Under the pieces are notes generated by a model that ran no database searches, was not told where the DNA came from, and saw only the letters and a program-made list of their open reading frames with translations. Below are positions 16,868 to 62,930 of a stretch of DNA of 64,000 nucleotides, one piece after another. Numbering within the stretch: position 1 is the first letter of the stretch; every line of letters begins with the position of its first letter. The position numbers and the translations under genes were made by a program. The DNA is from Egibacter rhizosphaerae (GTDB lineage: Bacteria; Actinomycetota; Nitriliruptoria; Euzebyales; Egibacteraceae), in the NCBI RefSeq assembly GCF_004322855.1, contig NZ_CP036402.1, positions 1,922,001 to 1,986,000 on the forward strand, in the 5' to 3' direction.

Positions 16868-19683
16868 GTGGAGTCCATGGAGATGCCCAGCGGGCTGCCT
16901 GTGGGGGTCGCGGCGTTCGTCGGCCGCGGGCGTGAGCGTGCGACAGTGACTGGCCTCGTGGTGGATGCCCGCGTGGTCACGTTGACCGGGTCGGGCGGCT
17001 GCGGCAAGACGCGCTTGGCGGTGGAGGTCGCGGGGGACGTGGCGTCGCGATTCCCCGATGGGGCCGGCTGGGTGGACCTGCAAGGCGTAAGCGAGCCTGA
17101 AATGGTTGCTCCGGCCCTCGCCGCAGCGGTGGGCGTCCGCGAGCGGCCCGGGCGGCCGCTGGTCGATGCGCTCGCCGAGCAGCTCCACGCACGGCAGATG
17201 CTGGTGGTCCTGGACAACTGCGAACACGTGGTGGCGGCGTGCGCGGAACTGGTCGCCAGGTTGTTGTCGTTGTGTCCAGACCTGCACGTGTTGGCCACGA
17301 GCCGCGTGCCGCTGGTGGTTGCGGGTGAGGCGACGTTCGAGGTCGCCGGGCTGCCGGTGCTCGACGCCACTGTTGGGTCCGCCGACAGGGTCGCGGCCGC
17401 GGAAGCGGCGCGGCTGTTCGAGGTGCGGGCCCGGCAGGTGGTGGCCGACTTCCGGATCGACGATGGCAACGCCACGGCGGTGGCCGAGATCTGCCGGGGG
17501 CTGGATGGGATCCCGTTGGCCATCGAGCTGGCGGCGTCGCGGGTGCGGGTGCTGGCGCCGGGCCAGATCGCGGCCCGCCTGTCGGACCGCTTCGGGCTCC
17601 TGACCGGCGGAGTGCGCGGCGCACCGGCACGGCAGCGGACGCTGGAGGCGTCACTGGCGTGGAGCTATGACGTGCAGCGGCTGGCGTTGGCACGGTTGTC
17701 GGTGCTCGCCGGCTCGTTCGAGCTCGACGCCGCGGAGGCGGTCGTGGGCGGGGCGGGCACCGACGGCAACGAGGTGTTTGATCTGGTCGGCGGGCTGGTC
17801 GAACAGTCGATGGTGGCCGTCGTCGAGCGTGGTGGCCGGGCCCGCTACCGGCTGCTGGAAACCATCCGGGCTTATGCCGCCAGCGGCTGGCGGAGCTCGA
17901 CGACCCCGACCGGGTGCGCGACCGCCATCTGGCGTTCTACGTGGGGCTGGTGGGGCGCTCCCAGGCGGGCATCAACGGTGACCAGCCCGAGCCCTGGATC
18001 GCGCGGCTGGCGGTGTCTCTGGATGATCTGCGCGCGGCGATGGACTGGGCGGCGGCGTCCGGAGATCTCCCAGCGCTGGTGGACCTCATCGAGCCGATCG
18101 TGCGCTTCTGGTTCGAGCACGGCTTATCCTCAGAGGCGCAGCGACGGCTGCGCGACGCGGCCGATGCCCCGGGCATCCGCGAAGACGAGCGCGTACGGGG
18201 GTTGCTCGCGGCAGCGGCTCTGACCCTCGCCACCCGCTGGGAGCCGGCCACCGCCTATCGGTTGGCCAGTCGCGCGGTCGACGCGGGACGCGCCGCCGAT
18301 GCAGGCGGTGCACTCGCCACCGCGCTGAGCTTGCGAGCCTGGATGGGGGCGTGGTCGGGGCTGTCGCCCAACCACCAGATCGACGCCGACGTCGAGGAGG
18401 CACGTCGCCGCGCGGAGCGGGGTGGCGATGCTGCGACCCACGCCTACGTGCTCGTCATGGCTGCGGGGGCGCTGCTCGTTGGCCGAACGAACGATGTTGG
18501 ATGTGACCTGTTGGAGCAGGCCGTTGGGGTCTGCGAGGCGGGCGAACTCGTCTTCCAGCTGCCGTCCGTCCACGCGGCCCTCGGGCTGTGGTCGGTGTGG
18601 TCTGGGGAGCTCGACCGGGCACGTCGGCACGCCCGACGGGCCGTCGAGCTCGCCCGGCAGATCGGACGTCCCGGATGGGAGGCGATCGGGCTCACCGGGC
18701 TTGCCGCGGCCGCCGTCCTGCAGGGCGATCACGGTCAGGCGCAGCAACGGCTGGCCAAGGCGCAGGAGATGCTGCGATCACGAGCCCTGGAGGGATCCCA
18801 GTTCGAGACGTGGTTGCGTCCCTGGCTCGCGTTAGCGGCCTACGCATCCGGCGATCTGGACACCGCTCGGGCCACCGCGGAGGCGATCGTGCGGATCGGC
18901 CGTGGCAGCGGCAGCCGCTGGGACGAGGCCATCGGCCAGTGGCTGCTGGGCATGCTCGCACACGGCCAGGGCCGCTCCGACGACGCGCGAGCCCATCTGC
19001 AGGCCAGCCGCGCCCTGTCCGCCGACCCGCGCATGCCGTTGCCGCTGGGCCGGTCGCTGCTCGGCCTCGCGGCGCTCGCCAAGCAGGATGAGGACCTCGA
19101 GGACGCGTGGGGGCTGGCCCATGACGGCCTCGAGACCCTCGACGACTACGGTGACCGGGTCGGGGCCGCCGCCGCGCTGGAGACGATCGCCGACCTGGCC
19201 ACCGCCCTGAGCGAGCCCGCGCGGTCGCTGCGCCTGCTCGCCGCATCTGAGCGGTTCCACACCGAGTCGGGCATCGCCCGCTTCCCGGCTCAGGCAGACC
19301 GTTTCGATCGAGCCCGCCACGCCGCACGGGCCGCACTGGATGACACGGAGGCGACCACCTGCTGGGAGGAGGGCGACCCGCTGTCGCTGGCCGACGCGGT
19401 CGCCTACGCCCGCCGCGGACGGGGCGAACGGCTACGCCCGCGGATCGGCTGGGCGTCGCTGACCCCCGTCGAACGCGACCTCGTGCGACTCGTCGCCCAA
19501 GGCCACACGAACGCCGAGATCGGCGAGCGCCTGTTCATCTCCGTCAATACGGTCAAGAAGTACCTGACCCGCGTGTACGCCAAGGTCGACGTCGACGGGC
19601 GCGCCGAACTCGCCGCGGAAGTTGCACGAGCCCGGGATGCACCCGCGCGCGAGTGTTCTCGGGAAGGCTGTGGGTGCGGATGA
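16868..19683 (+). pseudogene. LuxR-family ATPase regulator split by one-base frameshift
   Basis: Two frames together encode one regulator of about 938 residues. The first frame (16868 to about 17881) holds an AAA/STAND ATPase: Walker A GSGGCGKT at residues 41-48 and Walker B MLVVLDNCEH. The winged-helix-like segment LGGLVEQSM-type follows, ending in YRLLETIRAYAA. The second frame continues with RLAELDDPDRVRDRHLAFYVGLV, a long TPR-like helical region, and a C-terminal LuxR HTH (LTPVERDLVRLVAQGHTNAEIGERLFISVNTVKKYL). One missing base near 17881 explains the break exactly. It may be a real pseudogene or a consensus error. Intact relatives are signal-sensing transcriptional activators. The start is GTG 16868, with ATG alternatives at 16877 and 16883. 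Confidence 0.85.
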
Positions 19684-24869: not shown

Positions 24870-25366
24870 TCACGCTCGGATGGGCTGGCCCTCGCAGCGG
24901 GCCCTCAACCCGGCGAACATCCGTGGGGCGAAGACCGCGTCGACCAGCTCATAGCCGTGCAGCATCGCCCACACCCACGGGCTGCGCTGGCAGCGATAGC
25001 GCACCCGGACCAGCAGGCGGGCGCGGCCCTCCCCGACCGGTTCCAGGACGAACGCCCACGTGAAGTCCAGGAACGCTCGCGCGTACCCACGGGAGTCGGG
25101 GTCGGTGTCGGCGGGGTCGAGCGGGCGGCCAGTGACCGGATGGATCGTCGCGCGGAAGACCAGCACCCGGGGTTCCTCGAGCCGGGCGACTTTGAAGCTG
25201 AACGGGCCGGTCGCGTCGTCGATGCGATCGCCCACCGCGAGGTGCTGCAGCTCGGGGATGATCCGCGTCGCGCTCGTCTCGCCGGCCACGGCCGCCGGTA
25301 CACGAGATAGCCGCCCGTGGCAAGGACACCGGCAGCCGTTGCGAGGGCGATCGGTCGACTCCGCAT
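24870..25366 (-). pseudogene. SRPBCC-type membrane-anchored protein, internally deleted
   Basis: From an ATG at 25366 with GGAG upstream, the N-terminus MRSRPIALATAAGVLATGG reads as a short membrane anchor ending in YLVYRR. Near 25290 the sequence jumps into another frame at TRIIPELQHLAVGDRIDDATGPFSFKV. That second part is the C-terminal half of an SRPBCC-like protein, including FTWAFVLEPVGEGRARLLVRVRYR. The first half of the SRPBCC domain is missing, so an internal deletion with frame change is inferred. It is divergent from the Ser-x-x repeat gene, with only 38 bases between the two starts. Confidence 0.7.
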
Positions 25367-25404
25367 GCTCGTCTCCAGTCGGATGGTGTGGCAGCCTGCG
25401 GCGC

Positions 25405-25787
25405 ATGGCCGACCGCACGCAATCCTGCCAGGACCGTGGCCGCTGGTCGCTGTGGTCTCGCGACTCGACGCTCAGCATCGCCTCGCACGGCTCGGCGCTG
25501 TCCATCGCCTCCATCGGGTCGACCGCCTCCGTGGGCTCGATCGGCTCGATCTGCTCGATCGTGTCGATCGGTCGGCCGGCTCCATCGGCTCGGTCCTGTC
25601 CGCTGCCAGCCATTGGTCCCTGCTGTCCTACCGGTCCAACCGTGCGATCCGTGCCGCCGGAGTCGCCGGCGACAGCCCTGCCACAACCGCGCTCGTGGTG
25701 GTCGCCGCCGGCGCGTTCGTCGCCGATCAGCTCGCCCGACGACGCGCACGCCGTGGCACGGCTCGTACCGCTGAGGGCACCGAGTAG
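25405..25787 (+). pseudogene. Ser-x-x triplet repeat protein, one-base frameshift
   Basis: Two frames joined near 25570 encode a protein of about 127 residues. From WSLWSRDS at residue 15 to SLLSYRSNR, serine occupies every third position for 22 consecutive triplets (for example SIASHGSALSIASIGS). Aromatic WS(L)xS motifs cap both ends. The frame breaks inside the repeat at ATCGG/TCGG, where one base is missing; restoring it keeps the serine period exactly. After the repeat there is a hydrophobic segment (TTALVVVAAGAFVADQLA) and a basic tail. I recall similar Ser-Ile-Gly repeat hypothetical proteins in actinobacteria but know no function. It may be a real pseudogene, or an intact gene with a sequence error. 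Confidence 0.7.
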
Positions 25788-39891: not shown

Positions 39892-39912
39892 CCGGACTCG
39901 CGACGCGGGATC

Positions 39913-39984
39913 GGGCGGGTCGCGCGGGCCGGGCGGGTCGCGCGGGCCGGGCGGGTCGCGCGGGCCGGGCGGGGCGCGCGGGGT
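39913..39984 (+). repeat. 18-base tandem repeat, about four units
   Basis: Three perfect units of GGGCGGGTCGCGCGGGCC (39913-39966) and one degenerate unit follow the acetyltransferase stop by 22 bases. The same repeat type, differing at three of 18 positions in the shifted phase, occurs at 62841-62930. Confidence 0.85.
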
Positions 39985-62746: not shown

Positions 62747-62840
62747 GGTCGCTGCCCCTGACGTCGTCCCGCCGCGTCGCGCACCCCGAGTCTACGCACG
62801 CACTGCGGCTCTCACGGCCGAGGCCTCGCCGGCCCATTCA

Positions 62841-62930
62841 GGCGGGTCGGACGGGCCAGGCGGGTCGGACGGGCCAGGCGGGTCGGACGGGCCAGGCGGG
62901 TCGGACGGGTCAGGCGGGCCGGACGCGGCA
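62841..62930 (+). repeat. 18-base tandem repeat, five units
   Basis: Units of GGCGGGTCGGACGGGCCA occur three times perfectly (62841-62894), then with one change (62895-62912) and once degenerate (62913-62930). They lie in the spacer upstream of the DUF4446 gene. The unit is a close variant of the array at 39913. Confidence 0.87.

Follow-up and report, generated by a model that had tools for sequence, protein, structure and literature searches.

A serine-triplet protein of Egibacter rhizosphaerae and its apparently undescribed actinobacterial family

A protein with serine at every third residue, encoded in the window (the whole stretch of DNA analysed here, 64,000 nucleotides of an Egibacter rhizosphaerae contig), is, judging from sequence comparison, a member of a real actinobacterial family that is strongly conserved and apparently undescribed. 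The family is made up of small, stand-alone proteins of Actinomycetota, in which conservation centres on an array of nine-residue units with a Trp-Ser-Leu cap at each end, and this array is under purifying selection. For the communities working on protein families and protein structure this provides a conserved protein of compact size, apparently unannotated, with an unusually strict sequence rule.

The gene in the window and its frameshift

According to the translation, the gene begins with the ATG at 25405 and ends with the stop codon at 25785-25787 (Table 1). The first frame from this ATG reads MADRTQSCQDRGRWSLWSRDSTLSIASHGSALSIASIGSTASVGSIGSICSIVSIG, and from about 25572 the next frame over reads SAGSIGSVLSAASHWSLLSYRSNRAIRAAGVAGDSPATTALVVVAAGAFVADQLARRRARRGTARTAEGTE; when one missing base near 25570 is bridged, the product has 127 residues with 22 consecutive S-x-x triplets. 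This agrees with the sequence-only reading, which had described the 22 triplets as well as the Trp-Ser-Leu caps followed by a hydrophobic stretch and a basic tail, all of which are present in the translation. Left unbridged, the two halves hold S-x-x runs of 14 and 8, lengths that were each reached in none of 200,000 composition-preserving shuffles, and the run of 14 is the longest S-x-x run in any frame of the window. The read-through across one missing base, also proposed in that reading, is justified because the profile of uninterrupted relatives matches each half separately (N-terminal half, E 6.4e-16, profile positions 9-61; C-terminal half, E 9.2e-8, profile positions 70-112).

Since the adjoining minus-strand gene (24870-25366) is likewise frame-split, near 25290, the frameshift in the window copy more likely stems from an assembly error. 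The alignment of one distant homologue runs across the split of this neighbour. A third gene, an AAA/TPR/LuxR-type regulator at 16868-19683, seems to be frame-split too, as it consists of two overlapping ORFs in different frames with AAA_22 on one and TPR and GerE on the other. Multiple frame splits within one window fit residual assembly errors, while they may also mark a decaying region. The minus-strand gene itself has distant homologues within the same class and gave no match in a Pfam search.

Table 1. Features of the serine-triplet gene, in positions of the window
Feature	Position	Strand	Basis or remark
Serine-triplet ORF, 127 aa with the frameshift bridged	25405..25787	+	Translation and homology of both halves
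-10-like element GGCAGCCT, predicted leaderless start	25390..25397	+	Relatives carry the element at nearly the same place
N-terminal cap W-S-L-W (RWSLWSRDS)	25444..25455	+	SLWS-x-[DN]-S common to most relatives
Array, 22 S-x-x triplets	25447..25643	+	Family consensus is a nine-residue unit
One-base frameshift site within the array	25565..25575	+	Frame switch; 26 named relatives uninterrupted in frame
C-terminal cap H-W-S-L-L-S-Y-R	25611..25634	+	Relatives have S-x-W-S-[VLI]-[LM]-S-[WY]-R-S at the aligned place
Hydrophobic segment ATTALVVVAAGAFVADQLA, possible membrane anchor	25680..25736	+	Kyte-Doolittle 1.63 over 19 residues
Basic tail RRRARRGTARTAEGTE	25737..25784	+	Translation; not conserved among relatives

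The nine-residue unit, its selection and its distribution

The family unit is S-phi-L, S-phi-G, S-phi-G, where phi is Ile, Val, Ala or Leu, so the third positions of the triplets run in the order L, G, G, and glycine makes up 41% of all third positions. Large third-position residues agree at a lag of three triplets (0.74 versus 0.54 in shuffles, z 10.0) and again at six (z 7.9), with depletion at the other lags, and the array gaps in alignment A2 are nine residues long in six of six cases. The lags and the gaps together indicate that the repeat is nine residues made of three serine triplets. The strict three-residue period of the sequence-only reading therefore stands for the serines, whereas the structural period is nine residues. 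In the window copy the nine-residue phase is visible in part only (STL, SAL, then STA, SIC). Most members enter the array through S-x-L-S-L-W-S-x-D-S and leave it through S-x-W-S-phi-phi-S-W-R-S, and in the alignments the window's RWSLWSRDS and HWSLLSYRS fit these entry and exit caps, so that the Trp-Ser-Leu caps noticed in the single protein proved to be conserved among its relatives.

In the S-x-x frame the array has a pS of 0.46 and a pN of 0.14 (pN/pS 0.31) with a median dN/dS of 0.16, whereas the medians of the other five frames, all at least 0.5 and up to 4.2, are not coding-like; this speaks for a real protein and against the random low-complexity frame that the earlier reading had kept in mind. 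The tails are variable and loosely constrained (pN/pS about 0.74 and 0.85). Serine codon class is preserved by column, with AGY in 24 of 24 sequences at one position and in 19 of 26 at another, which is unlike a freshly expanded DNA repeat. It is true that some relatives (L006, L005) have near-identical 27-base units and that other genomes hold plain SVG or SAG runs which score too, as would be expected if the array were merely an expanded minisatellite read in one frame. However, with purifying selection confined to one frame, codon types kept by column and caps, start element and start codon all conserved, such an origin is extremely improbable, and for the Streptomyces-type members it is refuted.

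The family, as defined by alignments A1, A2 and A4, was recovered at several depths. Besides the window's genome, four of 150 relatives searched were clear matches; among 396 sampled species, 17 were matched by the single protein at E<=1e-5 and 30 by the profile at E<=1e-6. Inspection of the latter by eye showed plain SVG, SAG or SAA runs in six and an ambiguous match in one, leaving about 23. Named genomes, when scanned, contributed 26 loci, of which 21 are in Streptomyces and the others in Sinomonas, Paractinoplanes, Frankia, Streptacidiphilus and an Acidimicrobiales MAG. The sequence-only reading had presumed such relatives in actinobacteria. Matches occurred also in eight Streptomyces plasmid records, where the annotated copies are called 'hypothetical protein', and none occurred in phage records and viral contigs. 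The distribution is patchy, because the genomes listed for the window's own taxonomic family gave no match at the profile threshold. The Sinomonas copy (L069:10001-10333) has 70% identity to the query and is unusually near the Streptomyces copies, which may reflect horizontal transfer. Searches of the array proteins against Pfam, NCBIfam, PHROGs and PADLOC gave nothing convincing, the sole recurrent match being a weak one to HxsA4, and a literature search, with subscription papers mostly outside its coverage, gave no paper on the family; the absence of a characterised relative, as first supposed, thus held in both.

The proposed fold and its alternatives

The nine-residue period and the nine-residue gaps point to a rung-like solenoid or a cross-beta rod more than to a plain three-fold helix. 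Our best explanation, put forward tentatively from sequence features, is a stacked, probably oligomeric rod that would be membrane-tethered in most members. The array, which is uncharged and fairly hydrophobic, would fold into a narrow beta-solenoid or cross-beta stack with each nine-residue unit as one rung or half rung; Ser, Leu, Gly and aliphatic residues would align as ladders, the Trp caps would close the ends of the rod, and the C-terminal hydrophobic helix would fix it to the cell membrane as a surface scaffold or filament. Several observations count against the stacked rod. AlphaFold2 gave the array neither fold nor strands in a Streptomyces protein (26 rows, mean pLDDT 45.9) and in a Frankia protein (11 rows, mean pLDDT 45.0), and no conserved neighbour backs any function. 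The hits of a PDB sequence search were either runs of Gly/Ser-type repeats or marginal matches to unrelated entries, and a rung of nine residues is known to us from no other solenoid.

The tether also varies. Most members have 19-residue windows of hydropathy 1.5-2.5 C-terminal to the array, but about 9 of 41 have no stretch above 1.5 there, and the charges flanking the hydrophobic helix give no single orientation. The membrane anchor is therefore a frequent addition and not part of the core, and the anchoring suggested by the sequence-only reading would apply to most members but not to the family as a whole. The Frankia protein L079 is tail-less. On the insertion scale the segment in the window copy has an unfavourable sum of +5.7, and the array sums are unfavourable as well, which makes it unlikely that the array itself crosses the membrane as a helix.

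A mostly disordered or condensate-forming array of low complexity, elastin- or silk-like and acting as a sticky membrane-bound linker, would agree with the lack of confident AlphaFold structure and with a composition rich in Ser, Gly, Val, Ile and Leu. It is nevertheless somewhat unlikely, as conservation extends to individual positions, Trp, Leu and the nine-residue phase among them, and a dN/dS of 0.16 goes beyond the need of a free linker. Slightly less probable is a three-residue-per-turn helix of the polyproline-II or polyglycine-II type that would present Ser, aliphatic and Gly/Leu faces and pack into bundles. Bundle proteins of this kind, such as the snow-flea antifreeze type, have a three-residue sequence period, which the serine-triplet family shares, but here the fixed residue is Ser and not Gly, and a nine-residue period lies on top. 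The strict serine period would yield three distinct faces and the high share of glycine in third positions would suit such packing, and bundled polyproline-II structures are discussed for antifreeze and other proteins in published work (PMC8409303). However, such a helix needs neither the nine-residue super-period nor the gaps, and bulky Ile, Val and Leu are frequent; the nine-residue period speaks against a plain polyproline-II helix.

It is improbable that the protein is a RiPP precursor with serines modified by a maturase. Lanthipeptides carry S-x-x-S motifs, and the serine spacing recalls these and the His-Xaa-Ser repeat proteins; moreover, 19 of 21 members match HxsA4 (NCBIfam NF038313; best E 2.1e-6), and a LanC-family gene lies near the array gene on one Streptomyces plasmid. 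On the other hand, neighbours are not conserved, and the LanC model had no match in 7 of the 14 carriers tested, the window's genome among them, so that a lanthipeptide with a cyclase of this type is not supported. The His-Xaa-Ser system is not supported either: the window protein and one Streptomyces member both score 18.2 bits for HxsA4 against a curated cut-off of 55, and the radical SAM maturases HxsB and HxsC were below cut-off in all ten carriers searched, including the window's genome. The serine-triplet family thus resembles the His-Xaa-Ser proteins in its three-residue serine register and weak profile matches, but it has no His repeat, and these partners did not reach cut-off in the carriers searched.

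Returning to the stacked rod, other repetitive proteins offer points of comparison. Short Ser/Gly-rich repeats are found in the silk fibroin heavy chain. For this repetitive protein beta-solenoid stacking has been proposed (PMC11217467), a likeness to our proposal, whereas the serine-triplet array is bacterial, much shorter and of another repeat. The RTX beta-rolls have, like the family, a Gly-rich nine-residue repeat, but the Asp-rich calcium-binding motif described for them (PMC3034196) is absent from the serine-triplet array, which has Ser at each third place. If the nine-residue rung holds true, few solenoid repeats would be shorter, and designed rods could take it as a simple template. 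Thanks to the caps and the nine-residue rule, synthetic arrays would offer a direct test of the idea. That the family represents a new fold, in which a very narrow rod of such rungs with three Ser ladders and Trp caps serves as a patchily distributed, membrane-tethered actinobacterial scaffold, is a reading to which we give a low probability.

Start element and neighbourhood

Named relatives share an upstream element, GGGCAGGATGGCCTC-ATG, at positions -15 to -1, with high information at -14, -13, -6, -4 and -1 and with variants such as GGCAGCCTGATCCCC-ATG (L042) and GGCAGAATCGTCCC-ATG (L006); the conserved GGGCAGGATG element ends beside the ATG. The window has GGCAGCCTGCGGCGC at this place, which is near the L042 variant. 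In this position the -10-like element would make the transcript start with the ATG itself, which suggests that the mRNA of the array gene is probably leaderless. Not all of the more distant relatives have the start element.

At the loci of the relatives no conserved neighbour or partner was detected, and the clustering of neighbours reflects lineage synteny only. The genes beside the array gene in the window are beside it in none of the relatives, with reductive-aminase and MerR matches lying kilobases off or at few loci, and its minus-strand neighbour had no match near the array genes of the relatives. In two Streptomyces-like loci the gene ahead of the array gene is, as judged by eye, STAS-domain-like, and one Streptomyces plasmid copy (L054:1-18285) lies amid SpoIIE phosphatase, PAP2 phosphatase, LanC-family and SRPBCC genes; the STAS-like and SpoIIE neighbours are functional leads only. 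Elsewhere in the window, two tandem repeats with 18-base units were observed, one at 39904-39982 with 98% matches and the other at 62839-62925 with 4.8 copies of the unit CAGGCGGGTCGGACGGGC.
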